From assembly GCA_902578495.1 (NCBI GenBank), contig CACHCY010000002.1, positions 130,320 through 194,319 of the forward strand: a stretch of 64,000 nt of DNA, given 5' to 3'. This document shows positions 9,724 through 30,441 of this stretch, piece by piece (position 1 is the first letter of the stretch; the number at the start of each line of letters is the position of its first letter). The notes below the pieces were generated by a model, which did not search any database, had not been told where the DNA came from, and worked only from the letters and a program-made list of their open reading frames with translations. Source of the stretch: an uncultured SAR86 cluster bacterium (lineage in GTDB: Bacteria > Pseudomonadota > Gammaproteobacteria > Magnimaribacterales > AG-339-G14). The translations under genes and the position numbers were made by a program.

Positions 9724-12700
9724 TTAAGGTGCTTCAAAAATTATTACCCCATGATCCACACTTGGTTTGCCTCCATTAAGCATTTCTTCATTAGTTGGGG
9801 TTGGCCCAACGTCACTTGCAGAAATTGGGGTTCCATTTAACTCATCTAATGCTGAAGGAGATGTGCTATATGCGAGTGTACCAACAGCTTCATTGGACGG
9901 CTTAAGAAAAAACTCGCCCCGAATAATTTTTGATTTATATTTAGTGTCGTCATCGTCAATGACCTCAGATCCGTCTGGGATGGTGTATTCAGGGAACCAT
10001 CTTATGTTTTCCCATCCCCCTTCACTGTAGTCCCAGTATTCTCCTTTTTCCGTCCAAGTTGCAATATCAAACGCCGTCCACTCGAAGCCCCATAGTTGGC
10101 CAAAACCAGCATACTCAAGAGTCTTTTTCTTATCAGCCAATTTTCCGTATTTAGCTGCGTCATTAGGAACTTTAAAGGTAACGGTATGTGGCCTTGAAAT
10201 TTCTACGAGTTGATCATTACTATCAAAAACTTGATAACTTTTCCAAGTATCCCAGTACAAATCATAGTATTCATCTGAGCCTTGCAATTTATCAACGCAA
10301 TATCTTTTTAAGGAGCTATTAGCATTTTGTATAGTATCGTCATCGTGCCATCCATAGGAATCCTTTATGCCGTCTCCATCAGAATCTTCAGTTTTCTCGC
10401 ATTCCATCTGATTTAGTTTGGCCATATTAAACAAGCGCATATTTGCGTATAAACCGCAAACTTCTCCAGATCCATTCGGCTCAAGGTAACAAACGTTTTG
10501 AAAAGCATTCCATGGATCGCTGTACTCATAAATAGTATTTGGAAATGCAATGTCGGCATTAGTAATGGTGTCTTGAATTGCACCATTAACAAATTTATAT
10601 TGCATCAGCTCTGTTTCAAGCACTCCATCAGAAGTCCAGTCACCAGCTGTCCTACCATCTTGGTTAGTTCTCAAATAATTACCAGTAGGTATTGTGGATG
10701 TACCAGCTTCGATGCCAGGACTAGTAAGGGGCGATGGAGATTTTCCATTAATATTTTCATTATTCCTTTGAGCGGTATTAATTTTTGAAGTTGCATCTGT
10801 TAAATATGTATTAAAGCTTCTAGAAGAATAGCAATTTTGAATACAACCTAAAGTGATAGAAGCTAAATCCTCAAGCGAAGCTTCACTTTCTTTTCTAAAC
10901 TCTACTGAAAGAGATGATGGATTTTGCATAGCGGCAGTTGTAATTTCATAACCTCCATAATTACCCCCAGATGCCCATAAACTTCTCCAAATTTGATAGC
11001 CATCGCTTGAATCAAGATTATCATCCATTGCATCAATATATTCTTGAGGGGTAAAAGAAAATTCAGTTATGTCTTCTTCGCCAACCCACCATCCATAGTT
11101 ATTAGTTTTAATAGCAGAATCGAAAACAAATGCGCCGACAGGCCTTGTGCCATCTAAAGAGTATGAAGCATCCCAATAACCTTTGAATACAACATAGTTT
11201 CCAGATACAGGCACGCCAAGAGAAGCCCACCTTTCTTTCATGCATCGATCATCATCACCATTTGAATTAGAATCTTTACTATCCAAAATAGGAACAGTTC
11301 CGTTGTAACCTATGACATAGCTATTCCACCAACAATCTGAGCCGGTTTCCTTGATATCCCATTCCACGAATAGCTCAACTTCAACTCCGTCTAGATCATT
11401 TAAGCTCTTTTTCTCAACAGAGATCTTTCTAATACTTACTGATTTAGGTTTAAGAAAATAATTAGAAGCATCATCTGAGTTGACTTTAGTAAACGGCGTA
11501 GTATCTGTAACGATATTCTGATAATCGTAGTCCAACCAAACTCCCCAGTAGTCAGCCCAAGCATATGGAGCACCCAAAGAACCATCTTCTTTAGTAAGCT
11601 CTGAGCCCTCTAACTCAAAACCGGGATTTTTTAGGTTGTATCTAGAGCCGTCTTCAGTATAAAGACCGTATTCCCAAACACTTATTTTAGCCAGCTCTTT
11701 ATCAGTTGATTTGCATTTCTCAGTGAGGTCAGGAGCTCCACCAAATCCTACAAATGGAGTCCAGTCAGCATTTACAATAGTATCGGTATCATCTACGTAT
11801 GATCCGTCTGATTGTTTTTTTCTAGCCGCTACAAGTTTTTCACAAAACTTTTTCGAAGTATCATCAAATGAGAATCCTTGTGTAAGTTTTCCTTCCCAAA
11901 GAGTCTTCTCTTTAAGGGTTTGCACTTGATTGGTTCCATCAAGCGCCATCTCAAATTCCTCGAAGTCACAATCAAAAGGGCTTCTTATTTGATTGACACC
12001 ATTCTCTTTTACAATACAGTAGGTTTTTTCTTCCTCCCAAATACCGTCTCTTGTAAATACTGTTTCTCCACCAATGGTTTGAGCATTTTGACTGATAAGA
12101 ATTTCTGCATTGCTAGCAGTATCATACATATCCATATTTCCGGCTGCTGCTCCGCCCATGGTTTGTCCAGCCATTGCTCCATCAGAACCTAACTCCTGAA
12201 AAGCAATGATGTTGCCCATTGTAGAGAGATAGCCGCTTCCTTGAACTGTTCCAGCTGGAGGACATTTTGTATATTTTTCGGTCTCTTGAAAATACTCCCA
12301 AGAAAAAGAATCATAGCCTGCATTAATGGCTGCATTTTGAGCATCTTCCAATGAGGCATAAGGGGCATTTTGACAATTTGCTGTAATAAGAAAATTAAGT
12401 TCCATGTCTCCATTAGGATCAGAAGAACTTGCTCCTGAATATACTTTAGTAAGAGCATAAATAAGCATATCAGGCTGAGCATCCCATAAATTATCGTAAT
12501 TAGTTTGAGCCTCAGAGTAATCCCCTTTTTGAAAAAACCATGACTTAACTTCTATGTGTTCTGGCACTGGTTGTGTTCCGTCTACTTGAGCCTCTTTAAA
12601 TTGGACGTCAACTAGCATTGTGCTCGGTAATTCAGCTTGATTTTGTTGATTTTGTTGTTGCTGATCGCCCCCAGAGCTGGACCCACTTTGTCTAGATGAA

Positions 12701-12936
12701 CCAGTTTGAATGGCTTGTTTGCGACACCGATCAGGATACACATTCGCTTTGTAAGGACCTTTGTCTATATATTGTTCAGCTCTCAATTTAGAAATAATGC
12801 ATAGTATTTCGTTAGCTAAGTTAAGGCTCTCTTCAACTTGATTCTCCCCAGCAAAAATTTCAGCTACATCGGTTTCATAAGTTTGAGCTGTCAGCACAAA
12901 CGGTAAAAGGATAGTGATTAAAAATAGTTTTTTCAT
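9724..12936 (-). CDS. Large secreted protein of unknown function (1070 residues)
   Basis: This product is not recognised. The start at 12936 was chosen because an AAGGAG ribosome binding site lies 6 bases before it; a GTG five codons upstream would put that site inside the gene. A signal peptide is clear (MKKLFLITILLPFVLTA, cleavage before QTYETD). After about 75 residues comes a Gln/Ser/Gly-rich linker, then a long acidic Trp- and Tyr-rich body with many scattered cysteines, as expected for an exported protein with disulfides. One stretch (DSDGDGIKDSYGWHDDD) resembles a calcium-binding thrombospondin type-3 motif. No membrane anchor, autotransporter or beta-barrel end is evident. It is probably periplasmic or cell-surface. 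Confidence 0.75.
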   Translation of the reverse strand: MKKLFLITILLPFVLTAQTYETDVAEIFAGENQVEESLNLANEILCIISKLRAEQYIDKGPYKANVYPDRCRKQAIQTGSSRQSGSSSGGDQQQQNQQNQAELPSTMLVDVQFKEAQVDGTQPVPEHIEVKSWFFQKGDYSEAQTNYDNLWDAQPDMLIYALTKVYSGASSSDPNGDMELNFLITANCQNAPYASLEDAQNAAINAGYDSFSWEYFQETEKYTKCPPAGTVQGSGYLSTMGNIIAFQELGSDGAMAGQTMGGAAAGNMDMYDTASNAEILISQNAQTIGGETVFTRDGIWEEEKTYCIVKENGVNQIRSPFDCDFEEFEMALDGTNQVQTLKEKTLWEGKLTQGFSFDDTSKKFCEKLVAARKKQSDGSYVDDTDTIVNADWTPFVGFGGAPDLTEKCKSTDKELAKISVWEYGLYTEDGSRYNLKNPGFELEGSELTKEDGSLGAPYAWADYWGVWLDYDYQNIVTDTTPFTKVNSDDASNYFLKPKSVSIRKISVEKKSLNDLDGVEVELFVEWDIKETGSDCWWNSYVIGYNGTVPILDSKDSNSNGDDDRCMKERWASLGVPVSGNYVVFKGYWDASYSLDGTRPVGAFVFDSAIKTNNYGWWVGEEDITEFSFTPQEYIDAMDDNLDSSDGYQIWRSLWASGGNYGGYEITTAAMQNPSSLSVEFRKESEASLEDLASITLGCIQNCYSSRSFNTYLTDATSKINTAQRNNENINGKSPSPLTSPGIEAGTSTIPTGNYLRTNQDGRTAGDWTSDGVLETELMQYKFVNGAIQDTITNADIAFPNTIYEYSDPWNAFQNVCYLEPNGSGEVCGLYANMRLFNMAKLNQMECEKTEDSDGDGIKDSYGWHDDDTIQNANSSLKRYCVDKLQGSDEYYDLYWDTWKSYQVFDSNDQLVEISRPHTVTFKVPNDAAKYGKLADKKKTLEYAGFGQLWGFEWTAFDIATWTEKGEYWDYSEGGWENIRWFPEYTIPDGSEVIDDDDTKYKSKIIRGEFFLKPSNEAVGTLAYSTSPSALDELNGTPISASDVGPTPTNEEMLNGGKPSVDHGVIIFEAP

Positions 12937-13028
12937 TTCTTTCTCCTTCACTGAATATAACTAAAAAAAATTTAATTTACAAAAACATTAGCCTATACTT
13001 TTTAGATATCTTTAAAGGGAGAACCTCA

Positions 13029-16556: not shown

Positions 16557-16892
16557 ATGAGTATTATTGTTGCTTATTTATTTTTATCAATAGCTATCGT
16601 CACCGAAGTGATCGGGACTATATATTTACGCGATACCGAAGGGTTTACGCGCCTGACACCCAGTGTGATCACCGCGGTCAGTTACGCAGCATCTTTTTAT
16701 TTTATTTCCCTTACTCTGAAACAAATTCCAGTTGCCGTGACCTATGCCATTTGGTCCGGAGTAGGGCTGGTTTTAATCAATATCTTTGCCGCCATCAAAT
16801 ACGGCCAAGTCCCCAACTCGATGACCACCTTGGGGATGGCTTTTATCATCTTGGGCGTGGTTCTCGTTAATTTCAACACAGGTGTTGATTAA
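16557..16892 (+). CDS. SMR-family multidrug/cation exporter (EmrE-like)
   Basis: The 111-residue protein has four hydrophobic helices and works as a dimer in the inner membrane to exchange protons for quaternary cations or guanidinium-type compounds. The essential membrane glutamate is E17 in AIVTEVIGT, and the conserved AIWSGVG segment of helix 3 is present. Family relatives include EmrE, SugE/Gdx and MdtIJ; the residues around the glutamate look EmrE/QacE-like. Its stop region contains the AT-rich string also found at the end of the first giant gene downstream. Confidence 0.9.
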   Translation: MSIIVAYLFLSIAIVTEVIGTIYLRDTEGFTRLTPSVITAVSYAASFYFISLTLKQIPVAVTYAIWSGVGLVLINIFAAIKYGQVPNSMTTLGMAFIILGVVLVNFNTGVD

Positions 16893-16974
16893 TTAAAAAA
16901 ATACCTGAAAATAGCTGTTTTAGTTAGCTTATGAAAGTTTCCTAAAAGGGAAAATTGGAGTTTTGGGGCAAAAT
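16885..16974 (+). repeat. Leader region duplicated with the giant genes, copy 1
   Basis: This roughly 90-base stretch begins with TTGATTAATTAAAAAAAT at 16885, at the end of the SMR gene, and runs to the first ATG of giant gene 1. An 18-base identical string occurs at 23627, almost exactly the same distance before giant gene 2. Both leaders also share AAGGGAAAA and a G-run just before the ATG. The remainder is diverged. It is best read as a leader carried along in a tandem duplication. Confidence 0.5.
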
Positions 16975-16988
16975 ATGACAAAATGTCA
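16975..16988 (+). promoter_or_regulatory. Palindrome starting within the first ATG of giant gene 1
   Basis: TGACAAAATGTCA (16976-16988) is a perfect 5-bp inverted repeat with a 3-base spacer. In this copy the arms extend to ATGACA/TGTCAT, so the putative start codon lies in the left arm. The same 13 bases occur at the equivalent place in giant gene 2. It could be an operator or an RNA hairpin that hides the start codon. Confidence 0.4.
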
Positions 16989-19900
16989 TAATAGAAAGAT
17001 TATGAGCAAGAAAGTTTTACATTTTCTTGTGCCCTCTAAACCATCAACCATACTGTTTAGTGCGTTACTTTTAATCACAGGAGTAATCGGAGCGCAAGAA
17101 CGAATCGGAGTCGCTGCCGCAGTCGACACCACCACCACTGATTTAACTCTGGAGCAAGAGCGTAGGCTCGTGGATGAAGGTTACAAAATCATCCAAAATC
17201 ATACGATTGAAACCGACGAGAACGGAAAAGCGCAAATGCTGCTGATCGACGGGACGGCTTTTACCGTTGGACCTAATTCTTCGGTTACCCTTGATTCCTT
17301 TATCTATAACCCAGAAACCGCCGAAGGTTCACTGACCGTCACCAGTAAAGGCTTAATGCGTTTAGTCGGCGGTAAAGTCACCAAAAGTAATCCGGCCATC
17401 ATCAGAACCAACGCAGCGACCGTGGGTATCAGAGGGGGTATTGTCTTTGTCGATAGTGAAGGCGATACGACCGAAGCTTCTTTTATTTACGGTGATGAGA
17501 TGAGCGTCACACCCAATTTGAATCAAGACGGCACATACGTACTAACTCGTAACGGCTTTATCGTTGTAGTCGACGATCCGTTGGAAGACGTAGAAGACGT
17601 GTCACTTTTAACCGCAGATCAGTTACTTTCTATGCAACAAAGCCTTCAAGGCTCACCTGAAGAAGAGGAAGAGGAGTCAGAGGAAGAATCCAGCGAAGAA
17701 GGAGAATCAGAGGAAGAAGAGTCTGAGGAAGAAGAATCCGAAGAAGAAGAGTCTGAGGAAGAAGAGTCTGAGGAAGAAGAGTCTGAGGAAGAAGAATCAG
17801 AGGAAGAAGAGTCAGAAGAAGAATCAGAGGAAGAATCTGAAGAGGAATCCAGCGAAGAAGAATCAGAGGAAGAATCCAGCGAAGAAGAGTCAAGCGAAGA
17901 AGAATCAAGCGAAGATTCAAACGAAGAAGAAAGTTCTGAGGACTCAGATTCAGAATCTGAATCTGAAGATTCAGGCAGCGAGGAGTCTGAGAGCAGTGAT
18001 GATGCTGGGACTGAAGACGATTCTTCAGACAGCTCAAGTGAGGAAGGGTCTGACGCAGGCTCAGATTCGGAAACTACAGAAAGTGAAAGCGAAAGTGAAG
18101 TTGGCTCAGATACCGGATCATCAGATGAAGCTGGAACAACTGAAACTGAAGCTGGCGGCAGCGAGGCCGATGCCAGTCCTGACACCGATGCCTTGGATGC
18201 CGGACCGGATACTGATAGCGAACCAGAAATAGACGAGAGTGCTTTAGACTCAAGCGGTATATCCGATAACTCCTCAGCAGTTGCCCCGGATCAATTAACC
18301 ACTGCAACAGACATCGATACAGGAACAGAGATTGAAGTAGCCGCTGAAACTGAAACCGAGACACAAGAAGAGACGGAAGTAGTCGAAGACGTTACCGAAG
18401 TTGCACAAGAAACTGCTGCCGATGAATCGGTCGGTGCGCCAGAGGTCGATGTTGTCGCCACTACCTCAGTTACAGAAAACGAAAGCAACACCACCGTTGC
18501 TACGCTATCGATCACCAATCCGGGAGAAAATGAAATTAACTTTGAGATAACCGGAGAAGACAGCGACAAGGTCGTCTTTGATCCAGAGACAAATTCCATT
18601 CAGCTTATCGATGGTTTGGATCATGAAACCAATGATACTTTAGACATTACTTTGGTGGTTACCGATGATCTAGGGAACATTCAAATCAACGATTTAACGA
18701 TTGAGGTAGACGACGTCAACGAAGCGCCGAGCATGCTTTCGATGACGCATAACAATTTAATCTCAGTTAATGCATCGATAAACGACGTTCAAGCCAACGG
18801 CTCTAACATCAGTGAGACCACCGAAATAGGTGCCGTGGTTGCTGACATTACGGTTGCTGATCCAGACGGCGACACCGTGCAATACACTTTAGCCGGTACG
18901 GGCAGCGATAACTTCGCTATTTCAAATTCCGGTGAAATTACTCTGACTTCAGAGCTGAATTTTGAATCTCAAAGCCAATTCACCATTCAAGTGGTCAGCT
19001 CGGACGGGATCAATGAGATTGTCCAAGACGTCGTTATCTATGTGGTTAATGATAACGAAGCCCCGAGCGTAACCCTTGATAATTTTCAGGTGGCTGAAAA
19101 CGCTGCTGCAGGAACAGTGCTTGCTACGGCAACCGGCCTTGATCCTGAAGGTGTGGACGTCACTTATTCGATCGCGGGGACAGGCAGTGAAAACTTTCAA
19201 ATCGACAGCAACGGAAACATTACATTAGTAGATTCTTTGGACTATGAAACAACAGAAAGTTACGAGTTAACTATATTTGCCAGCGACGGTTTGTTTACGG
19301 TTCCGAAAGTGGTCACTGTTTCCATCACTGACAGCAACGAGGCACCGTCAGTTACCTCATCAGTTGCTTTTAATTCATTTCTAGAGAACACCGCTGTGGG
19401 AACCACCATTGCTACTTCCACCGGCTCCGATCCTGAAGACGATACAATTACTTACTCGCTCTCGGGTACCGGGAGCGATAAATTCAGTGTGGACGCCGAC
19501 GGTAAGGTTACCCTAGCCAGTGCTTTGGACTACGAGACGGCTACCTCTTATTCAATTAATTTAAACGCAAGCGACGGTACTAGCACCACCACAAAAGTCC
19601 TTACCATTAACGTCGGTAACGTGGCTGAATTGGTGTATTCCGGAAGTTTAGCGGCAAGCTCTCAAAACGAAACCATCTCTACCGGTTCGGTTATCTTAAG
19701 TTCAAGCACCAGCGGTGAGGAAGGCACCGTCACGTATTCCATTTCTGATCCGGATAATAAATTTGCTATTAACTCTTCCACTGGAGAAGTGACCCTGGCT
19801 AATGCGCTCGATCACGAGACGAAAACCTCGCACTCGTTTACCGTTACCGCCAGCGACGGCAGCAACAGCGAGTCGCAAACTTTTACCTTACAAATTAATG

Positions 19901-22900
19901 ATGTTGATTTATCTATTGCTGCAAGCCTAGCCAGCGCGGCACAAACCGAAGGCATAGCTACAGGAACAACGATTGTTGCAGCTCCCACAGCAAGCGGCGC
20001 AGAAGGCACGATCACTTACTCCATAACCGATGCCGATAACAAATTTACGGTCAATTCATCCACCGGAGCGGTAACTTTAGCCAATGCTTTAGACTACGAG
20101 ACCAAGACCTCGCATACCTTTACCTTAACAGCGAGTGACGGCAGCACTACAACCTCACAGACTTTTACTCTAAACGTTACCGATATTGATTTAGCGAATT
20201 TAGTTACGGCCCTAGCAAGTGCAACGTTAGACGAAAGTTCCAGCGTCGGTGCCTCTGTCGCCACAGTGAGCAGCCTCGAGAACGACACCGGCAGTGCGGC
20301 AACTTACAGCATAACCGCTGGAAACAGTGCGGGTAAATTTAGCGTGAACTCCAGCACCGGGGCCATTACCACGGCGGCTGCGGTCGATTTCAAAGATGCT
20401 AAATCATACACGTTAACGTTAACCGCATCGGCCGGCGGCGACACGACGTCATCCACCGTTGTTATCCCCATTCAGAATGAAGAAGATTATCTATCGGCTT
20501 CGGTACGATTTTCGCAGGCGTATCATTCGGTCACACAAACTGGTTTTTCAGCAACGGCAACCAGAGGGCCGTCCGGTTCCTCCATGTCTAATTACGTGCT
20601 CGAGGGCGCGACCAACGACGCCACTCAAAATTACTTAATTTGTGGAAGCAATTGTGGCGCAGCAAGTTCTTCGGACAATTACACACAAGCAGTGTCTCAA
20701 GAAGGAAACAATCTTGTCGACATCCAATATTATTTTCCTCTTTCCACAAGCAGTGGAGCTCGAGGGAATACTTTTGACGGCACAGTTACTGCGAAAATCG
20801 CCGACACAGCAGACTCTTCTAACAAAATTGACTTCGCGACGTCAGAGATTCTCTACGGGGGTCGCGATACACTCAACGCAGACTTTTGGTTTATGCACTT
20901 AGATAAGGATGAAACCTCTTTATCGATAGCCGGTTCCATCGATATGTTATTGATGCAAAGTTATCCTCATGGCCAATACGTCACAAATTTACAAAATAGA
21001 GCTGCTGCTAAAGGGATTAACGTTACCACAAGCAGGATCCCCTGGTCTGGAGGCCAAAATGCTTGGCCTACATCTACCAGCCCGATGGCAGCTTATTACG
21101 ATACCCTTTCTGATTTTGAAATCATTTGGGATCAACGAGCTACTCGATTCCAAAGCGGTAATGACACGAACAGAAGACCGATTTGGGAAGGCGAACAAGC
21201 TCGGATTGAAGCATGGGCAGCTGACCCCGGCAGTCTGAGCTATGTTTTTATGGTTGAGCGTTGCTGTGGAAAGGAATATGCAAAAACTTATTTCACGGAC
21301 TTAATTAGTAACCTTGGAGGTTCAATTACCATGAACTCAACCATCGATAGAGCCGGTGGTTCTAATAGTTCGCTAACTCTGCCAAGCTTTTTTGATGGCA
21401 TTAAAAATCATGATGTTACCGATAGTGGTCCAGGTTACGGAACTAACTCCTGCACCGGCTGTACTTTGCTGTATCCACGTAATGACAGTTCTTTTGCTGC
21501 CGCCTATTTTCGCAGTCAAGATTTAGAAAGCGGCACCAACGCAGATATCTTTCTTTACACCGATGTATACGTTGCGTCTCAAAGTGGTAACAATACGCTG
21601 CTTGATTGGTTCTTCGATGCCATGATCAACAAGCACGGTGCGAATCAAATTTTTCAATCCTTCCAAGATCAATTTATTTTTGTCGGTGAACCTTTCACTG
21701 AGGTCAGAGGAAATAATACTTGGGCAAGTTTTGTATCTTCGTTGAGCAATGGCTCAAAAAAAGTCATGGCGGGAGCGATAATCCCAGTAAGAAATTTCAC
21801 AGGCGGCACGGAATACTTCTACCCTAACTTTATTCCTTCAAACGCCTGGGCAGATAGCTTTGGGGATGTCGGTCTTACCTACGATAGTCAATTAGGGGAC
21901 AACCCTGGAGCAACCGATGCAGATTGGCTATGGGTTAAAGTTGCTCAAGGGAGCGCAAGTGGCCTTGCTTACATGGGAATACAAAGTTGTCGTTTTGATT
22001 CAAATTGCACTGGCGCTTACAGTAACGAAGTACCCGAAGGTCAATCTTTGTTCTGGCAGGTTTATTCCAAGACCGATAGTTCGACGCTATCTCCTGGTGT
22101 TGGAATTTGGGCGCAAATTTCTTTTAAAGATTCCTACGACGGTGCTTCCGGTAGCACCACCAGGGACGATCAACAAAGCTTGTTCAGTGTCCTTATTGCT
22201 GATTACGATTACAGAAAAAACGATACCGATCGTTATTCTGCTGGTGATACAAACTACGGCCTTGACGGTTATCATTATTGGTCGTACCAAGATCCAACCA
22301 ATGCCGACGATAATTCCAAAGCACTGCTCTACGGCACCTCGCCGGTGGAATGCGTTACCACGCGTGAATCAGGTTGCTGGTACTCAAAAGCTTCAGGCGA
22401 AAGACCGCTTGCTAGTCTGTTAACGCCCTCAGACCCCTACAACAGCGAGGACATGAAGCTGAGTGTGTTTTACGATGCAAACTCTGGAGCTTTTAATCAG
22501 GGAACCTTTGCTCAAGCAAGTTTTACGCAAACTGTTCAAGATAGATCAGACGGAAGTAATTTTACTTGGCAAAGGACTGGAGTAGACATAAGCGCTTTTC
22601 GAACAAGCGCAGAGGCTGGATACCTCTCCAGCGCTTCGACTCATAACGGTTTCTTCGGTGGGATTCTAGAATTCCACGATAGCGGCAAAAGTCAATTAGC
22701 TCGAATTCATTCGACTAGCACGCTAGCTACAATTCTCTTTGATGATACGAACGACTTAGTGCAAACGGTGGCACCGCTAACGATAGCTTCTGCGCCTGCC
22801 AATAATTACACAGCAACTTGGTCGACCGTTGATACGGGGGCTGTGACTTTAAAATACGGAGATGCCAATAACTCCGAAGCAAAATCTGCTTACATATCTA

Positions 22901-23634
22901 AAGAAGTTTTTGGGGCCGAGATTCAAGACGACGGTTCGCAAATTGACGGTTCGTCAGGCGGTACCGGTAATTTAGCTGGCGCCATGGTTTCTTATAACAC
23001 CTTAGAAGAGGGTGACTCAGATTTATTCCACTCTGGGGGCAACGATCCTATGCCAGATACGAGCTACTCAACGTGGGGTTTTTGGGCGATGAGCTCGGTG
23101 GATATTTCTCCTAATTCAGGTACCCAAAATGCTTCGGTGCACTTGGGTTCTTGGGTAGCGGGTGATGTGGTCGATCAAAGCGATATTCCAACTTCCGGTT
23201 CTGCATCGATGAGCGGGGCAGCGGTGATGAAAGTCGCATCGCGATACAATCAATCGGGATCTAATTACGATGTCCATAAATACACCACCACAGCGGATGT
23301 CGCAGCTACTTTCAATTGGGGTGTGGGTAGTTATTCAGGACAATTTGACTTCACTAATTTTGACGATAAAAATGCCATCGTTGCCAACGCAGGCTTTACC
23401 TCGTTTTCAATCAATATCTCCGGTTCGGGATCCACTTATGCCGGCTCGTTAGCCGATACCAACAACGGTTGGACGCGCGAGGCAGTTATTGCCGGAGCGC
23501 TCTACGGAGCTAGCGGTTCGGCTCCGGATGAAAGCGGCGGACGCTTGGGCGTAAGCTTGAGCAAATCCGGCGCTTTAGGAACAGCCGGCGCTAATGACTT
23601 CTATATGGCAGAAGGCATATATTTGATTGATTAA
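16975..23634 (+). CDS. Giant exported FecR / cadherin-repeat protein, paralogue 1
   Basis: The product has about 2219 residues. The domain order is: signal peptide (about 1-40, ending TGVIGA-Q); FecR-type domain (about 88-180, AFTVGPNSSVTLDSF to AATVGIRGG); Glu/Ser/Asp-rich tract (about 227-415); seven cadherin-like repeats of about 95 residues (about 492-1171, with VNDNEAPS-type linkers and LDYET strands); then a unique region of about 1050 residues. The last 250 residues have Gly/Ser/aromatic beta-strand texture (GSYSGQFDFTNF, GWTREAVIAGALYG, ESGGRLGV) reminiscent of TbpB-type barrels; that link is an inference. ATG 16975 has a G-run 6 bases upstream; ATG 17002 is the alternative start. It is probably a surface or extracellular adhesin or binding protein. 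The export route is unknown. Confidence 0.85.
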   Translation: MTKCHNRKIMSKKVLHFLVPSKPSTILFSALLLITGVIGAQERIGVAAAVDTTTTDLTLEQERRLVDEGYKIIQNHTIETDENGKAQMLLIDGTAFTVGPNSSVTLDSFIYNPETAEGSLTVTSKGLMRLVGGKVTKSNPAIIRTNAATVGIRGGIVFVDSEGDTTEASFIYGDEMSVTPNLNQDGTYVLTRNGFIVVVDDPLEDVEDVSLLTADQLLSMQQSLQGSPEEEEEESEEESSEEGESEEEESEEEESEEEESEEEESEEEESEEEESEEEESEEESEEESEEESSEEESEEESSEEESSEEESSEDSNEEESSEDSDSESESEDSGSEESESSDDAGTEDDSSDSSSEEGSDAGSDSETTESESESEVGSDTGSSDEAGTTETEAGGSEADASPDTDALDAGPDTDSEPEIDESALDSSGISDNSSAVAPDQLTTATDIDTGTEIEVAAETETETQEETEVVEDVTEVAQETAADESVGAPEVDVVATTSVTENESNTTVATLSITNPGENEINFEITGEDSDKVVFDPETNSIQLIDGLDHETNDTLDITLVVTDDLGNIQINDLTIEVDDVNEAPSMLSMTHNNLISVNASINDVQANGSNISETTEIGAVVADITVADPDGDTVQYTLAGTGSDNFAISNSGEITLTSELNFESQSQFTIQVVSSDGINEIVQDVVIYVVNDNEAPSVTLDNFQVAENAAAGTVLATATGLDPEGVDVTYSIAGTGSENFQIDSNGNITLVDSLDYETTESYELTIFASDGLFTVPKVVTVSITDSNEAPSVTSSVAFNSFLENTAVGTTIATSTGSDPEDDTITYSLSGTGSDKFSVDADGKVTLASALDYETATSYSINLNASDGTSTTTKVLTINVGNVAELVYSGSLAASSQNETISTGSVILSSSTSGEEGTVTYSISDPDNKFAINSSTGEVTLANALDHETKTSHSFTVTASDGSNSESQTFTLQINDVDLSIAASLASAAQTEGIATGTTIVAAPTASGAEGTITYSITDADNKFTVNSSTGAVTLANALDYETKTSHTFTLTASDGSTTTSQTFTLNVTDIDLANLVTALASATLDESSSVGASVATVSSLENDTGSAATYSITAGNSAGKFSVNSSTGAITTAAAVDFKDAKSYTLTLTASAGGDTTSSTVVIPIQNEEDYLSASVRFSQAYHSVTQTGFSATATRGPSGSSMSNYVLEGATNDATQNYLICGSNCGAASSSDNYTQAVSQEGNNLVDIQYYFPLSTSSGARGNTFDGTVTAKIADTADSSNKIDFATSEILYGGRDTLNADFWFMHLDKDETSLSIAGSIDMLLMQSYPHGQYVTNLQNRAAAKGINVTTSRIPWSGGQNAWPTSTSPMAAYYDTLSDFEIIWDQRATRFQSGNDTNRRPIWEGEQARIEAWAADPGSLSYVFMVERCCGKEYAKTYFTDLISNLGGSITMNSTIDRAGGSNSSLTLPSFFDGIKNHDVTDSGPGYGTNSCTGCTLLYPRNDSSFAAAYFRSQDLESGTNADIFLYTDVYVASQSGNNTLLDWFFDAMINKHGANQIFQSFQDQFIFVGEPFTEVRGNNTWASFVSSLSNGSKKVMAGAIIPVRNFTGGTEYFYPNFIPSNAWADSFGDVGLTYDSQLGDNPGATDADWLWVKVAQGSASGLAYMGIQSCRFDSNCTGAYSNEVPEGQSLFWQVYSKTDSSTLSPGVGIWAQISFKDSYDGASGSTTRDDQQSLFSVLIADYDYRKNDTDRYSAGDTNYGLDGYHYWSYQDPTNADDNSKALLYGTSPVECVTTRESGCWYSKASGERPLASLLTPSDPYNSEDMKLSVFYDANSGAFNQGTFAQASFTQTVQDRSDGSNFTWQRTGVDISAFRTSAEAGYLSSASTHNGFFGGILEFHDSGKSQLARIHSTSTLATILFDDTNDLVQTVAPLTIASAPANNYTATWSTVDTGAVTLKYGDANNSEAKSAYISKEVFGAEIQDDGSQIDGSSGGTGNLAGAMVSYNTLEEGDSDLFHSGGNDPMPDTSYSTWGFWAMSSVDISPNSGTQNASVHLGSWVAGDVVDQSDIPTSGSASMSGAAVMKVASRYNQSGSNYDVHKYTTTADVAATFNWGVGSYSGQFDFTNFDDKNAIVANAGFTSFSINISGSGSTYAGSLADTNNGWTREAVIAGALYGASGSAPDESGGRLGVSLSKSGALGTAGANDFYMAEGIYLID
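17662..17960 (+). repeat. Glu/Ser-coding tandem repeat in giant gene 1
   Basis: Near-identical 15-base units of the form GAGGAAGAAGAGTCT (coding EEEES) are repeated head to tail, grading into shorter EES units. The repeat is in frame, so unit gain or loss changes only linker length. The tract is clearly shorter and less regular in the paralogue (about 24391-24620). It is expected to be a disordered, strongly acidic spacer. Confidence 0.8.
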
Positions 23635-23715
23635 TTAAAAAAATCAAAGAAAATACTCTATCCAACCTAATAAAACCTTGCAAATAAGGGAAAAAATGGA
23701 TTTTTGGGTTGAAAT
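23627..23715 (+). repeat. Leader region duplicated with the giant genes, copy 2
   Basis: This stretch begins with the same TTGATTAATTAAAAAAAT string as at 16885, overlapping the stop of giant gene 1, and ends at the ATG of giant gene 2. Its length differs by one base from copy 1. Internal sequence is partly conserved near the 3' end (AAGGGAAAA and a G-run before the ATG). No terminator hairpin is visible between the two giant genes, so read-through is possible. Confidence 0.5.
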
Positions 23716-23729
23716 ATGACAAAATGTCA
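23716..23729 (+). promoter_or_regulatory. Palindrome starting within the first ATG of giant gene 2
   Basis: TGACAAAATGTCA (23717-23729) is identical to the element at 16976-16988 and occupies the same place relative to the two possible start codons. Here the outermost pair is lost (following base G instead of T), leaving the 5-bp arms. Conservation between copies suggests function, although recent duplication could also explain it. Confidence 0.4.
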
Positions 23730-26700
23730 GAATAAAAAGATTATGAGCAAGAAAGTTTTACATTTTCTTGCGCCACCTAAACCATCAACCATACTGTTTA
23801 GTGCGTTACTTTTTATAACAGGAGTAATTCAAGCGCAAGAACGAATTGGAGTCGCCGCAGCGGTAGACACCACCACCACTGATTTAACTTTGGAACAAGA
23901 ACGTAAACTTGTCGACGAAGGTTACAAAATCATCCAAAACCATACGATTGAAACCGACGAGAACGGAAAGGCGCAGATGCTTCTGGTTGATGGAACTGCG
24001 TTTACCGTTGGACCAAACTCGTCGGTCACTCTAGATTCCTTTATTTATAATCCGGAAACCGCTGAGGGTTCCCTGACGGTTACCAGTAAAGGTTTGATGC
24101 GTTTAGTCGGTGGAAAGGTCACCAAAAATAACCCTGCGATTATTCGAACCAACGCAGCCACCGTCGGTATCAGGGGTGGAATTGTCTTTGTCGATAGCGA
24201 AGGTGAGACCACCGAAGCTTCGTTCATTTACGGCGATGAGATGACGGTCACGCCTGCTTTAAATCAAGACGGCACTTACGTGCTAACCCGAAACGGATTT
24301 GTCGTTGTGGTTGATGATCCGTTAGAAGACGTTGAAGACGTTTCATTGTTGACTGCTGATCAACTGTTAGCAATGCAGGAGAGTTTGCAAGGATCGCCAG
24401 AAGAAGAGGACGAAGAAACAGAAGAAGAAACCAGTGAAGAAAGCGAATCGGAAGAATCCGAAGAAGAAGAATCCGAAGAAGAAAGCAGCGAGGAAGAATC
24501 CGAAGAAGAAGGTGAGTCTGAAGACGAAAGCAGCGAGGAAGAATCGGAATCGGAAGATGAGTCTGAGTCTGAATCTGAAGAAAGCGAGGAAAGTTCAGAA
24601 GAATCATCAGATGAGTCTGAAAGTTCTGATTCCGAAGCAGATGAAAATTCTGGAAGTGAGGACGGTTCATCAGAAGAATCCACTGACAGCGATAACGAAA
24701 CCGAAGCACAAGAAACCGATAACGCAACAGATTCGGATACCAATCAAGACGGCGTTGAGACCGACGGCGATACCGATAATGAACCAGAAATCGATGAAAG
24801 TGCATTGGACTCAAGCGGTATTTCCGATAATTCATCCGACGTCGAACCCGATCAATTATCTACTGCGACTGATATCGATACTGGATCGGATATTGACGTT
24901 GCCGCTGAAACCGAAACTGAGTCCGCAGAAGAAACCGAGGCAGTTGAGGACGTGAGTGAGGTGGCACAAGAAACAGTGCAAGACACCGCTCAACAAGAAG
25001 ATACTGCTGAGGCTGCTGAGGGCACACCGCTTGCCAGCGCGTTGGCAGGGGAGACAACCGATTCCTTGTCAGCCGATATTACTATAACGCCGTCGTTAGC
25101 AGAGAACGCTTCAAACGTTTCGATAGGAACCATTGACTTGGAAGCCACTGAAGATAGTCAAGTTACCGTAGAGATTACCGGCGCAGACAGCGATAAAGTG
25201 GTCTATAACCCCGAGACTCAAGAAATCATTCTTATATCAGGGTTAGATTTTGAAGACGATTCAACTTTGGATATTACTGTTTCAATCAGCGATGAATTAG
25301 GGAACAATCAAACAGACAATTTTACAATCGCGGTCACCAATCAAAACGACGCTCCAAGTTTGGTGGCTGTGGAGAATAATAATTTACTGTCTGTTAATGC
25401 ATCTCTAGATGACATTCAAACCAACGGATCAAACATTAGCGAGACCACTGAGATTGGTACTGTAGTTGCTTCGGTTACGGTTGCTGACCAAGATGGAGAT
25501 GCTCTGCAATACAGCCTTTCTGGTGCTGGCAGTGATAACTTTGCTATCTCATCTACCGGTGAGATAACCCTAGCATCATCCCTCAATTTCGAATCGCAAA
25601 CACAATACACCATAGAGGTAACATCCACCGACGGTCTTGTTTCCATGACCGAAGAGATAACTATTTACGTGGTCAACGATAACGAGGCACCGTCTTTAGC
25701 AGTCCAAGATTTCAGTATCAGTGAAGCATCTTCCTTAAATTCAGTCGTTGCAACAGCCGTGGGTAACGATCCAGAAAACACTACGATTTCCTACTCGTTG
25801 TCCGGCGGCGGCGATAAATTCACTATCGATAATAACGGACAAATTACCCTTACCGATAATTTGGATTATGAGAGTAATGCTACCTATGAACTTACAGTCT
25901 TTGCCAGCGATGGTTTTTTCTCGGTACCAAAAATTATTACAGTTACGATTACCGATGCTAACGATGCTCCATCGTTATCTTCATCGGTTGCCTTTAACTC
26001 GTTTCTTGAGAATACAGCGGTTGGTTCAACCATCGCAACTTCAACTTTTTCGGATCCCGAAAGCGATACACTTTCTTTTTCATTATCTGGCACCGGCAGC
26101 GATAAATTTTCTGTCGATGCCGATGGAAAGGTAACTTTGGCAAGCGCTTTAGATTACGAGTCTGCAACCAGTTATACCATTGCATTGGAAGCAACCGATG
26201 GGGTTAATACTATTACCAAATCTCTATTAATAAACATTGGCGACGTTACAGAATTAAGTTACACAGGATCACTGGCAGCAAACTCGCAAATAGAAAGTAT
26301 TAATACCGGAACAGTTATCCTTACTTCGTCTGTTTCCAATGGCCAAGGGTCTTTAACTTACTCCATCAGCGATCCAGATAACAAATTTGCCATTAATTCT
26401 TCTACCGGTGAAGTTACTCTAGATAACGCTTTAGATTTTGAAACAAAAACTTCGCACTCTTTCACGGTTTCGGTGACCGACGGCAGTACCACGTTATCTG
26501 AAACCTTCAGCGTATCGGTGAGCGATATCGATTTAAGTTACTCGGGAAGTTTGGCTTCAAGCTCACAATCAGAAAATATCTCTTCCGGTACCTTAATTTT
26601 GAATTCAAGCGCATCCAACGCCGAAGGCACAGTCACTTATTCGATAACCGATGCTGACAATAAATTTGCAATCAACTCATCTACCGGACAAGTCACTTTG

Positions 26701-29700
26701 GCCAACGCGTTGGATTACGAGACCAAGACCTCGCATACGTTTACTGTTTCTGCCAATGACGGTACCACTTCGACTTCTACAACTTTTACTTTAAACGTAA
26801 GCGATGCCAGCGGTTTAAGCAATCTTGTTACTACCTTAGCCAATCCAACGGTGGCAGAAAGTGGCACTAGGCATGCAAACTTTAATCCCGGTACTGCAGT
26901 TGCCTCCGTGTCTGGACTTGCGAATGAACTAGGTGGCTCGCCGGTCTATAGCATTACTTCGGGTAACGAGAAAAATATTTTTGCAGTTAATTCCAGTACC
27001 GGAGCCATAACGACAAACATAGACCTAGATTTTGAAACCGCTAAATCTCATACCATTAATCTGACCGCTACCGTCGGTAGCGATAGCACAACCACCGCCA
27101 TCACGATACCGGTGAAAAATGCCCGTGAGAACAATGCTTCATTGGTTCGTTACTCCGGTGCCTTCCACAATGCTTCAAGATCGGGTTTATCGGCCACTGC
27201 TACCCGAGGCCATCAAGCCGGCGCAGAAACTTTTGAGGAGGTTTTGATCGGCCTGAGAAATCGAACTAGGCAGAATAATCAGGATAACATTAGGGAAGAA
27301 GGCTTAAGTAATGCTCTGCACGGTGGCGGAATTCGACTTCAATACGGTCATGGAGTAAAAGAAAATCTAGATTTTTATTTTCCCGTTTTCAGAAGTGGGG
27401 ACTTAGAGGGTGCCTATGCACCTAACAACAATTCTGCAGGATCTGGTAATGCTGCAGTTTTTAAAGATGGGTTTTACTGGCCTTTTGGCGGAGCCACCGA
27501 TATGTTAGATGTGAACTCAACAGGAGGCAGCAGTAAAATTCATACCGCAGGGCGTACCAATTACGTTGGAAATGGTTGGCATGAATTTGCGTTTATGACG
27601 ACGCAAACCGCCAGCGTAGTTTCTTCAAATTTTAATATCATGGAGGAGGATTTGCGTGTCTTTTGTATGGGGTATGCTGAATCTTATTGCAACAACGCCT
27701 CCGGTTATTTTGCCAGCGGAAACCTCCAAACAAATTCTTTTATGTTCAACCGTACTTATACTTCGGAAATGGCTCAATCAGCAGGAAGTTCGCTTTATGC
27801 CCAGCAAGGCACTAGCAACCTCAGCGATAATTACCTGAACAGGTTTAACGTTATCATTGATAATCGCCAGTATGTCTACACGGATTCGACCAGCCAATCT
27901 GGTATGGCAACCGACCTTGATCTTTTTGTCGATTGGATGAAATTACCCTCGTCATTGCTCTACGTCAAAATATACGGAGATTACCAAGATGACGGAGATG
28001 GCCTTACAGAAAGCCAGCTCCCGCAACAAACCCGTAAATGGATTCAAGCAATAGGTGGCGACGTCGAGTTCTCTAATAATTGGAATGCTGGAACCGGGGG
28101 TTATCGTCGGCTTGGTGGAACTTTTGCCAGCGGCAGTTTTTACGAAGGTTTGAATAACACTATAATGTACGTCGCCTCCCCAGGGCCGGCGATATTATCG
28201 GCTACCAACGGCCAACCTATGTACTGCGGAGCGGGTTCAGGTGGCTCCGTTAGCAATTTCTCAAATTGCATGTCAGCTTATTTCAGAGCGGAAGATTTAG
28301 GCCCTGGAGTGCATGCGGATCTTTTCATCCACGGGGATCTCAGTTCAGCATGGGGCACGGGCTTGACGCAACAAGATAACAAACTTATCAGGACTTGGAT
28401 GTTAGACAAGGCGTTTAGTAAAATAGATCCGCCCACCGGCTCTAATACTCCTGATGCGGAAGTCGATTCCATCACCTACTATAAAGATATGGTTACTGCG
28501 GCCGGCGAAATACTAAGGGATAGTACTTTTACCTCCTTTACCGGCGGCGGTAAGGTGGTTACTGCGTGGGTACCGATCCCAATAGAAAATACCGCGGCTG
28601 CGGGTTTTGCCAATGATTATTTTTTTCCAGCTTTTATCCCAATCGATACCTGGAAAAATATGACCGTTAACAGTAACGACTTTAATTTAGAGGCAGCTAA
28701 TTTATGTATAGCCCAGGGATCGAGTTCGACTTGTAATAGTATGCGCTCTTCGATTAATACCTACGACGATAACTACAAATACATTAAAAATGCCATGACT
28801 GCCAGTATCTTCTCTGAAGAAAAATTTTATTACGGTAATCAAAATTGGTCGAACGCACCAATAGGGACAAGCCATTTGTGGCAAGTATTAAACGATAACG
28901 GTATCGGTGTTGGACTGTACGCACAAATTTCGGTTGTGCACTCAAGCAACACCAACAGAGACGACCAACAAAGTTTACTGAATGTTGTCATCACTCAAGT
29001 TGATCACAGGAGTAACGATACGACTAGATATTCTGTGGGTGATACAGGCATGGGAATGGACGGATACCATTATTGGTCTTTTCAAGACGACACCAGCAGC
29101 AATTCCAGAGGAATTCACTACGGAGTCGGGCCCATTGAATGTGCGACTGCGACTGAAGCGGGCTGTTTCTTTGGCGGACAACAGTCCCCTGCTTTTCCGG
29201 TAGGAGCAATGCTGACATCCTCTGATCCCTACAAATCAACTGCCATGACCTTGGCTGTGAGTTATGATTCCAGAGAGGATTCTTTTCAAGTGGGAACTTT
29301 TAATCAAGCCATAGTAAGACAAAGAATACTCGACAGCTCTGGTACTAAGGAAAGTCCAGGAAATACTTCTTACCAAACTAGTATGAACTTAAGCGATTTT
29401 CGTTCCACTGAATTTTATTCGTCGAGCGCTAGTTCCTACAGCGGATTTTTTGGCGGCTTATTAGAATTTGACGTCAGCGGTGTAGGTAACGGTCAATTGG
29501 CAAGGGCGCATTCAACCAGTACTTTGGCTACATTTACTTTCGATGCAACCAACGATGATGTTCAAGTTGTTGCGCCTATGACCGTAGCATCTGCGCCTAA
29601 TAATAATTACACCGCAACGTGGAGTGCAGTGGATACCGGTTCGATGACTTTAAAATTTGGAGATGCCAATAACGATCAAGCTAAGTCAGCTTATATAAGC

Positions 29701-30441
29701 AATGAGATGTTCGGTGCCCAGATTCAAGACGACGGCACTCAGATAGACGGATCCTCAGGGGGTTCTAATAATCTAGCTGGAGTTTTAGTCTCTTGGGAAA
29801 CCATTGAATCAAAGGATCATACTCTAGTCAGTGAGGGCATGCCTGATTGTAATACCTATAATTGCAACAATGCCGAATATTCAACTTGGGGTGCTTGGGC
29901 AATGGGATCGCCTGACATATCACCCAACGCAGGAGATCAAAACGCCGCAGTGCATCTAGGCTTTTGGGTAGCCGGCGATATGCTCGATCAAAGCGAGATT
30001 CCTACATCAGGCTCTGCTTCCATGTCGGGAAAAGCTGTGTTCAACGTAGCCTATAGACACAATCAAGCAAATTCCGATTACGGCGTTACTCAATATTCCA
30101 GCAACGCAACAGTAAACGGCACATTTAATTGGGGATCAGGCAGTTATTCTGGCCAATTGGACTTTACTAATTTTGATAGCGGAAATTCCTTAGTCAGCAA
30201 TGCAGGCTTCACTTCTTTTTCAGTAAGCCTTGCCGGCTCGGGGGCAACTTACGCAGGTAGCTTGAACGATACCAACAACGGCTGGACCAGGGAAGCTGTG
30301 ATAGCAGGAGCTCTCTACGGAAATAACACTCCGGTTGAAAGCGGCGGCAGGATCAGCGTTGGGCTGTCAAAATCAGGCTCTTTAGGTACTTCAGGCGCCA
30401 ATGATTTTTACATGGCTGAAGGTATCTATTTAATCGACTAA
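23716..30441 (+). CDS. Giant exported FecR / cadherin-repeat protein, paralogue 2
   Basis: The 2241-residue paralogue has the same order: signal peptide (ending TGVIQA-Q), FecR domain (about 88-180, nearly identical to paralogue 1), Glu/Ser tract (about 226-358, shorter), seven cadherin-like repeats (about 454-1135) and a unique C-terminal region. Between about residues 1150 and 1730 the sequence differs strongly from paralogue 1. From DDQQSLLNVVI onward it becomes highly similar again, through YSTWGAWAM, IPTSGSASMSGKA and GANDFYMAEGIYLID at the very end. Extra cysteines occur in the divergent region (CMGYAESYCNNASG), suggesting disulfides. The gene follows paralogue 1 by 81 bases and its stop overlaps that of the converging flavin-binding gene by three bases. 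Confidence 0.85.
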   Translation: MTKCQNKKIMSKKVLHFLAPPKPSTILFSALLFITGVIQAQERIGVAAAVDTTTTDLTLEQERKLVDEGYKIIQNHTIETDENGKAQMLLVDGTAFTVGPNSSVTLDSFIYNPETAEGSLTVTSKGLMRLVGGKVTKNNPAIIRTNAATVGIRGGIVFVDSEGETTEASFIYGDEMTVTPALNQDGTYVLTRNGFVVVVDDPLEDVEDVSLLTADQLLAMQESLQGSPEEEDEETEEETSEESESEESEEEESEEESSEEESEEEGESEDESSEEESESEDESESESEESEESSEESSDESESSDSEADENSGSEDGSSEESTDSDNETEAQETDNATDSDTNQDGVETDGDTDNEPEIDESALDSSGISDNSSDVEPDQLSTATDIDTGSDIDVAAETETESAEETEAVEDVSEVAQETVQDTAQQEDTAEAAEGTPLASALAGETTDSLSADITITPSLAENASNVSIGTIDLEATEDSQVTVEITGADSDKVVYNPETQEIILISGLDFEDDSTLDITVSISDELGNNQTDNFTIAVTNQNDAPSLVAVENNNLLSVNASLDDIQTNGSNISETTEIGTVVASVTVADQDGDALQYSLSGAGSDNFAISSTGEITLASSLNFESQTQYTIEVTSTDGLVSMTEEITIYVVNDNEAPSLAVQDFSISEASSLNSVVATAVGNDPENTTISYSLSGGGDKFTIDNNGQITLTDNLDYESNATYELTVFASDGFFSVPKIITVTITDANDAPSLSSSVAFNSFLENTAVGSTIATSTFSDPESDTLSFSLSGTGSDKFSVDADGKVTLASALDYESATSYTIALEATDGVNTITKSLLINIGDVTELSYTGSLAANSQIESINTGTVILTSSVSNGQGSLTYSISDPDNKFAINSSTGEVTLDNALDFETKTSHSFTVSVTDGSTTLSETFSVSVSDIDLSYSGSLASSSQSENISSGTLILNSSASNAEGTVTYSITDADNKFAINSSTGQVTLANALDYETKTSHTFTVSANDGTTSTSTTFTLNVSDASGLSNLVTTLANPTVAESGTRHANFNPGTAVASVSGLANELGGSPVYSITSGNEKNIFAVNSSTGAITTNIDLDFETAKSHTINLTATVGSDSTTTAITIPVKNARENNASLVRYSGAFHNASRSGLSATATRGHQAGAETFEEVLIGLRNRTRQNNQDNIREEGLSNALHGGGIRLQYGHGVKENLDFYFPVFRSGDLEGAYAPNNNSAGSGNAAVFKDGFYWPFGGATDMLDVNSTGGSSKIHTAGRTNYVGNGWHEFAFMTTQTASVVSSNFNIMEEDLRVFCMGYAESYCNNASGYFASGNLQTNSFMFNRTYTSEMAQSAGSSLYAQQGTSNLSDNYLNRFNVIIDNRQYVYTDSTSQSGMATDLDLFVDWMKLPSSLLYVKIYGDYQDDGDGLTESQLPQQTRKWIQAIGGDVEFSNNWNAGTGGYRRLGGTFASGSFYEGLNNTIMYVASPGPAILSATNGQPMYCGAGSGGSVSNFSNCMSAYFRAEDLGPGVHADLFIHGDLSSAWGTGLTQQDNKLIRTWMLDKAFSKIDPPTGSNTPDAEVDSITYYKDMVTAAGEILRDSTFTSFTGGGKVVTAWVPIPIENTAAAGFANDYFFPAFIPIDTWKNMTVNSNDFNLEAANLCIAQGSSSTCNSMRSSINTYDDNYKYIKNAMTASIFSEEKFYYGNQNWSNAPIGTSHLWQVLNDNGIGVGLYAQISVVHSSNTNRDDQQSLLNVVITQVDHRSNDTTRYSVGDTGMGMDGYHYWSFQDDTSSNSRGIHYGVGPIECATATEAGCFFGGQQSPAFPVGAMLTSSDPYKSTAMTLAVSYDSREDSFQVGTFNQAIVRQRILDSSGTKESPGNTSYQTSMNLSDFRSTEFYSSSASSYSGFFGGLLEFDVSGVGNGQLARAHSTSTLATFTFDATNDDVQVVAPMTVASAPNNNYTATWSAVDTGSMTLKFGDANNDQAKSAYISNEMFGAQIQDDGTQIDGSSGGSNNLAGVLVSWETIESKDHTLVSEGMPDCNTYNCNNAEYSTWGAWAMGSPDISPNAGDQNAAVHLGFWVAGDMLDQSEIPTSGSASMSGKAVFNVAYRHNQANSDYGVTQYSSNATVNGTFNWGSGSYSGQLDFTNFDSGNSLVSNAGFTSFSVSLAGSGATYAGSLNDTNNGWTREAVIAGALYGNNTPVESGGRISVGLSKSGSLGTSGANDFYMAEGIYLID

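Follow-up and report, generated by a model that had tools for sequence, protein, structure and literature searches.

A pair of giant genes lying in tandem in an uncultured marine bacterium of the SAR86 cluster is proposed to encode alternative recognition fibres belonging to a contact-sensing system that spans the cell envelope. The DNA analysed (64,000 nucleotides, hereafter the window) comes from a 1.18-Mb assembly (genome G000), in which it spans contig C2:130320-194319, and two intact open reading frames in it specify protein A (2219 aa, positions 16975..23634), which has homologues in related genomes, and protein B (2241 aa, 23716..30441), a tandem paralogue of A; these genes and all of their features given below are on the plus strand. 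Each protein appears to be an exported, tethered fibre with a recognition head outside the cell and a FecR domain as its periplasmic base, which would signal to cyclic AMP (cAMP) and ion channels, a reading to which a probability of about 0.6 is assigned. The parts are of known kinds, and their combination was not found described. The evidence comes from the fold of the C-terminal lobe, from a partner outer-membrane protein (OMP), from a sensor cyclase and two ion channels encoded with them in relatives, and from the variability of the head.

The C-terminal lobe (A residues 1889-2219, 22639..23631; B 29446..30438, by homology to A at 68% identity) had been taken as novel in a sequence-only reading of the window, but structural modelling assigns it to a known fold, a TbpB-type handle and eight-strand barrel. 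In an AlphaFold model of A residues 1171-2219 (57 sequences, pLDDT 80, pTM 0.78), the protein is predicted to end in this barrel, at approximately residues 2075-2218. Alignment with VIA-align matches residues 1889-2219 to the TbpB C-lobe (5kkx, Z 13.0, 199 residues) and to the NHBA C-terminus (6cuj, Z 12.4, rmsd 2.5 Å over 140 residues, 19% identity), and Foldseek recovers TbpB (E 6e-7) and HpuA (E 2e-5), with LbpB also among the structural matches. Single SAR86 lobes give only weak matches to Pfam and NCBIfam (PF01298 at E 0.012 in two of 14; slam_lipo at 0.18), and therefore the fold and more distant relatives were needed; a C-terminal profile found no match among PDB sequences. Alphaproteobacterial relatives match the NCBIfam family slam_lipo, ‘Slam-dependent surface lipoprotein’ (E 2e-6 to 1e-4), and FHBP_C. 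TbpB, LbpB, HpuA and fHbp are substrates of Slam, and the lobe, as modelled, is the mark of cargo of the Slam or type XI secretion system (T11SS).

A candidate exporter came to light only by way of genes adjoining the FecR genes of alphaproteobacteria, together with one weak match (L141). In three alphaproteobacteria, a gene for an OMP with tetratricopeptide repeats (TPR) and a barrel lies directly upstream of the FecR gene, and one of these OMPs passes the cut-off for the Pfam Slam family PF04575 (23.7 versus 22 bits). The SAR86 homologue shares 24-26% identity with the alphaproteobacterial OMP. In 16 named loci of SAR86 its gene is the one directly upstream of a giant gene, and it was recovered in seven of eight further genomes with giants. 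The model of one copy (L064, pLDDT 83.6) is predicted to combine N-terminal TPR helices with a barrel whose long strands number exactly 14, and the nearest solved barrels are those of the 14-strand CymA and OmpG (Z ~22). The OMP may be called distantly Slam-like: its modelled architecture resembles Slam and its score is below the cut-off, so that the case for its working like Slam is better founded than the case for its being Slam. Surface exposure of the giants through the OMP is nevertheless considered probable. In the window's own genome, the OMP is encoded at contig C3:71210-72508. The sequence-only reading had found no partner gene adjacent to the pair, which is true in the window; partners do exist, on contig C3 of the same genome and adjoining the giant gene in relatives.

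In every SAR86 locus reaching that far, a gene for a CHASE2 adenylate cyclase (PF05226 E 7e-43, PF00211 E 1e-22) is divergent from the OMP gene; beyond it lies a DUF481 OMP and then, in loci extending further, a cyclic-nucleotide-gated (CNG) channel that carries a cNMP domain. In most loci the giant gene is followed by a gene for a voltage-gated cation channel of bacterial Nav/Cav type (Ion_trans E 7e-43); it lies at most 600 bp downstream of 43 of the giant genes, and the filter of the channel, TYDDW, is kept in nearly all copies. The two aspartates of this filter recall calcium-selective CavAb, which we take as a lead only. In the window genus, this channel adjoins the OMP rather than the giant gene, and on contig C3 of the window genome (L162:5741-11776) the CNG channel, DUF481 OMP, CHASE2 cyclase, TPR/barrel OMP and voltage-gated channel are clustered, with a TonB receptor alongside. 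Two Woeseiaceae-labelled genomes repeat the cluster of OMP, cyclase and CNG channel. In addition, in four genomes from the same phylum, outside the SAR86 set, three adjacent genes encode a minimal triad of OMP, CHASE2 cyclase and a short FecR protein of 265-406 aa.

Over 61 related genomes, the giant, OMP, CHASE2 cyclase, CNG channel and voltage-gated channel are gained and lost together. Giant and OMP are both present in 19 genomes and both absent from 36 (Fisher p 3e-10, with shared ancestry ignored in this and all the following p-values), and co-occurrence is likewise seen for giant with CHASE2 (p 3e-11), OMP with CHASE2 (p 1e-12) and giant with CNG channel (p 3e-11). The giant and the voltage-gated channel occur together in 22 genomes, the giant alone in two and the channel alone in none (p 1e-14), counting close channel homologues at at least 66% identity and excluding two distant ones at 41%. 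The misses are mostly incomplete assemblies. Of the five genomes in genus g8, the same two carry giant, OMP and CHASE2, and in genome G019 the giant and the voltage-gated channel are missing together. Homologues of the giants are found in 34 of the 61 genomes, some of these being cadherin-only matches.

The hypervariable head, delimited on the AlphaFold model at A residues 1171-1888 (20485..22638), contains Cys pairs of the disulphide type and has a pairwise identity of 0.24-0.52, lowest at residues 1331-1460; the head of B (27124..29445) is 17-48% identical to that of A in most sub-regions. Within the genus, identity is 0.36 at residues 1171-1330, 0.24 at 1331-1460 and 0.30 at 1461-1600, compared with 0.95 in FecR, 0.72-0.74 in the cadherin region and 0.70 in the barrel. 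Between G000 and the same-genus genome G008, identity at four-fold sites is 0.24 in the giant gene versus ~0.93 in the flanking baxI and pdxH. Exchange or diversification of the head is fast. An alpha/beta domain within it (A residues 1320-1555, 20932..21639; residues 150-385 of the AlphaFold model) is predicted to have a class I glutamine-amidotransferase-like fold of the ThuA/OST48 kind, matched by VIA-align to an OST subunit (6ezn_G, Z 15.9) and to the ThuA-like 1t0b (Z 13.6); this is a likeness of fold only, and catalysis is not claimed.

The N-terminal parts of the two proteins are closely alike. Inspection identifies a Sec-type signal peptide at residues 1-40 of each (A 16975..17094, with cleavage approximately between VIGA and QE; B 23716..23835), and residues 1-60 of B are 90% identical to those of A. 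No lipobox Cys is seen in either signal peptide, and no sufficiently hydrophobic stretch follows it in A or B, as had been supposed when the proteins were described as having no membrane anchor. One FecR domain per protein (Pfam, E ~1e-6) occupies residues 77-173 in both A (17203..17493; PF04773, 29.3 bits against a cut-off of 24, with support from a genome-scale search) and B (23944..24234; 29.2 bits). It is followed by an acidic Glu/Ser tract at residues 228-416 of A (17656..18222; 189 aa with 85 E, 51 S and no K or R) and 228-356 of B (24397..24783; 129 aa). Seven cadherin repeats then extend over residues ~484-1170 of A (18424..20484; PF00028, seven stretches, E 1.5e-67) and ~446-1136 of B (25051..27123; seven stretches, E 1.2e-65), each with an LDxE-like calcium motif. 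The FecR and cadherin domains expected from the sequence are thus both recovered by profile search in both proteins, and the same domain order, from FecR through acidic tract, 1-12 cadherin stretches and head to the C-terminal lobe, recurs in the named loci of related genomes. A short giant of genus g3 (L089, L100 (L043); 1224 aa) has one recognised cadherin repeat and lies directly after a second, divergent OMP copy. The alphaproteobacterial relatives (L122, L123 and L124) are 932-1004 aa long and consist of FecR and C-terminal lobe, with no cadherin, and the SAR86 giant looks like an expanded version of this core.

In the proposed mechanism, the fibre would cross the inner membrane via Sec, and its TbpB-type handle and barrel would be recognised by the TPR/14-strand-barrel OMP, acting like Slam, which would move the head and cadherin stalk outside. 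By textbook repeat length the stalk would be roughly 30 nm long. The folded N-terminal FecR would stay behind in the periplasm, the disordered acidic tract would bridge the distance from it to the stalk, and the hypervariable, amidotransferase-like head would bind a varying target outside the cell. FecR would then relay binding to the CHASE2 domain of the inner-membrane adenylate cyclase, a step suggested by gene context and given about even odds. The resulting cAMP would act at least on the CNG channel encoded nearby, and the voltage-gated cation channel with the TYDDW filter would be a further effector; that ion channels are the outputs is plausible, with the balance tilting slightly the other way. 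The complete circuit of a touch or contact sensor, in which a hypervariable cadherin-stalk fibre, exported by the Slam-like barrel and tethered through periplasmic FecR, drives the CHASE2 cyclase, cAMP opens the CNG channel and a calcium- or sodium-permeable voltage-gated channel takes part, is put forward tentatively. A role in surface recognition or adhesion, as first suggested from the sequence, is well supported by the Slam-cargo-type C-terminus, the cadherin stalk, the hypervariable head and its Cys pairs. The accompanying suggestion that FecR is a structural or secretion module is probably incomplete: its conserved genomic partner, even for short stand-alone FecR proteins, is a CHASE2 sensor cyclase, and because this partner points to signal relay FecR is not obviously a mere structural part.

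Several observations weigh against this mechanism, beside the disregard of shared ancestry in the co-occurrence tests. The short FecR proteins of the four minimal triads have no barrel, and for that reason export may not be the role of the OMP in those genomes. Genome G019 has the OMP, cyclase and CNG channel and lacks both the giant and the voltage-gated channel, and the giants of the window's genus are unlinked from the OMP/cyclase/channel locus on C3. No Slam structure is among the PDB fold matches listed, and a search of SAR86 genomes with PF04575 gave nothing above the cut-off (12.5 bits for L064, and no listed match for the window genome's own copy). FecR is N-terminal, and its retention in the periplasm is something that we only infer. 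Furthermore, in Sinorhizobium meliloti, CHASE2-dependent signal perception persisted after loss of the FecR-domain protein SMc02177, which is thus not required for it (PMC5498481).

The most serious competing explanation, although an unlikely one, is a plain adhesin or recognition fibre, exported in a Slam-like manner for attachment or for binding of prey or particles, with FecR as a retention plug or peptidoglycan-side anchor and with the cyclase and channels merely sharing an ancestral locus. FecR of A is indeed similar to Lsa33, a surface adhesin (E 4e-7), with a weak likeness to the retention module of LapA (E 0.0013); all that is seen in the cadherin repeats, the head and the barrel is compatible with such a fibre, and giants are unlinked from the cyclase in both the window genus and g3. 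However, the CHASE2 cyclase stays with OMP and FecR across SAR86, the short FecR proteins in the triads of four non-SAR86 genomes have nothing to anchor, and the channel and cyclase genes co-occur with giants genome by genome. The variability of the head could also reflect a decoy or exclusion fibre under phage or grazer pressure, the head changing to escape use as a receptor. This view is suited by the replacement of head alleles while the genes on either side keep a high synonymous identity (G000 and G008, above) and by the presence of one to three copies per genome, yet variation also fits varying targets and the cyclase and channels are left unexplained; a decoy is judged distinctly improbable.

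Nutrient capture, in which the TbpB-like lobe would bind a nutrient (iron, haem or glycan) at the cell surface and deliver it to a TonB receptor, draws on the structural matches to TbpB, LbpB and HpuA and on the TonB-dependent receptor flanking the C3 locus. It has little chance of being correct: among the loci checked, the window genus alone has the receptor next to the cluster, the conservation of the barrel with variation of the amidotransferase-like head is the reverse of what a fixed nutrient ligand would entail, and the long cadherin stalk and acidic tract would be unneeded. Canonical iron-type cell-surface signalling, with FecR acting on an extracytoplasmic function (ECF) sigma factor together with a FecA-like receptor, is disfavoured to the point of near dismissal, since the PF04773 domain and a gene for a TonB-dependent receptor, three genes away from that of the OMP on C3, are outweighed by the lack of a cytoplasmic anti-sigma segment or membrane anchor in the giants, by the lack of any sigma gene adjoining the giants or the OMP locus (the reported absence of an adjacent sigma factor or receptor beside A and B in the window being confirmed), by the confinement of all FecR matches of the 61 related genomes to the giant/short cargo family, and by a conserved partner that is a CHASE2 cyclase.

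The gene pair itself, described at the outset as two adjacent genes with a common domain order, is upheld by open frames and by Pfam domains in each, and accounts for 13.4 of the 64 kb of the window, more than a fifth, in agreement with the sequence-only reading. The start of A, given as 16885, is corrected to the ATG at 16975 or to an internal Met10. The two proteins had been called near-identical in their signal peptides, FecR domains and last 250 residues; this holds for the signal peptide/FecR region (~90-95%, with FecR at ~95%) and fails for the last 250 residues (68%), and parts of the head are barely alignable. Assembly duplication of one locus is excluded, both by a DNA identity between A and B of only ~65-82%, with unalignable parts, and by other assemblies, in which the same neighbour genes enclose the same tandem arrangement. 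Most of the named relatives are assemblies of the SAR86 cluster, from single cells or metagenomes. Wherever a same-genus contig reaches, the slot has nadB, a gene resembling Bax inhibitors and a gene for an SMR transporter to one side and pdxH, uvrD and dctP to the other. It holds one copy in G001 and G008, two in G000, G004, G005 and G006, and apparently three in G002, as judged from three contigs broken inside the repeat-rich genes; SAR86 assemblies, single-cell genomes included, thus have one to three copies in the slot. The recurrence of slot and copy number in same-genus assemblies shows that the pair is biological and not an assembly artefact. In G002 (L004, L035 and L034), the contig breaks fall inside the FecR/acidic tract of each copy, and giant genes are therefore probably under-counted in short-read assemblies. 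In one SAR86 genome (G033/G318; L105, L183-L186), giant and OMP copies are broken by in-frame stops, which may reflect decay of the system or assembly error.

Guanine-plus-cytosine content (GC) and its value at third codon positions (GC3) are raised over window positions 13951-38000, a block centred on the giant genes, with GC3 mostly 0.44-0.53 from nadB to dctQ versus ~0.25-0.36 elsewhere. The rise is present in all same-genus relatives and the block must therefore be old; biased gene conversion or an old acquisition may be the cause. Recombination hitch-hiking of the flanks was considered and is not claimed: at four-fold sites the flanking genes show no consistent rise in identity, and only the GC rise is clear. 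Elsewhere in the window, the minus strand encodes a 1075-aa exported protein with no Pfam match (9724-12951), for which a homologue was found only in G004 among three relatives compared (80% identical, with synonymous sites saturated); it is another variable surface-type gene.

Members of SAR86 abound in the surface ocean and have small genomes; a genome report describes the lineage as resistant to cultivation (PMC3569297). If the proposed reading is correct, a cell supposed to float freely commits more than 1% of its genome to two variable surface fibres and has an exporter, a cyclase and channels dedicated to them, which would mean that the sensing of contact is important to it. Were the complete circuit to operate, contact outside would be turned into an electrical and cAMP signal in a streamlined bacterium that is among the most abundant in the ocean. 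The proposed reading would also extend the known range of T11SS cargo to giant fibres, add a cAMP output to FecR domains, and give voltage-gated and cyclic-nucleotide-gated channels a role in a defined signalling circuit of bacteria, one that could be rebuilt in a laboratory strain.

Searches of the open-access literature that combined FecR with Slam, with cadherin or with SAR86 brought up no account of such a system, and each known system resembles the giants in part. A 2025 survey of T11SS cargo (PMC12282271) describes a variable effector part followed by an eight-strand C-terminal barrel, and does not mention FecR or cadherin. Like such cargo (TbpB, LbpB, HpuA, fHbp, NHBA and the haemophilins), the giants have a C-terminal handle and eight-strand barrel, a variable effector part N-terminal to the barrel and, in relatives, a TPR/14-strand OMP encoded next door; unlike it, they are four to ten times longer and unlipidated and carry an N-terminal FecR, acidic tract and cadherin stalk. 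The likeness to LapA-type retained adhesins lies in the long repeat fibre and an N-terminus weakly similar to the retention module (19 bits against a cut-off of 50), but the giants have a Sec signal peptide in place of a type 1 secretion signal, and end in a TbpB barrel. With FecA-FecR-FecI they share a periplasmic-type FecR domain; an anti-sigma architecture is absent from A and B, in which the signal peptide precedes FecR and no hydrophobic segment follows, so that anti-sigma part, membrane helix and sigma partner are lacking and a CHASE2 adenylate cyclase is associated instead. In Burkholderia, the BiofilmReg operon combines a LysM-FecR protein with a CHASE2 histidine kinase (PMC5192318), and in S. 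meliloti, NsrA and CyaD1/CyaK provide cAMP signalling via an outer-membrane barrel and CHASE2 cyclases (PMC7529298, PMC13001267). No giant fibre, Slam-type barrel or ion-channel genes are reported for these systems, and NsrA, with its barrel described at residues 600-1200, is much larger than the 440-aa SAR86 OMP. Nevertheless, in both, as proposed for the giants, a FecR protein or a beta-barrel outer-membrane receptor is tied to a CHASE2 sensor, in S. meliloti with cAMP as the output.

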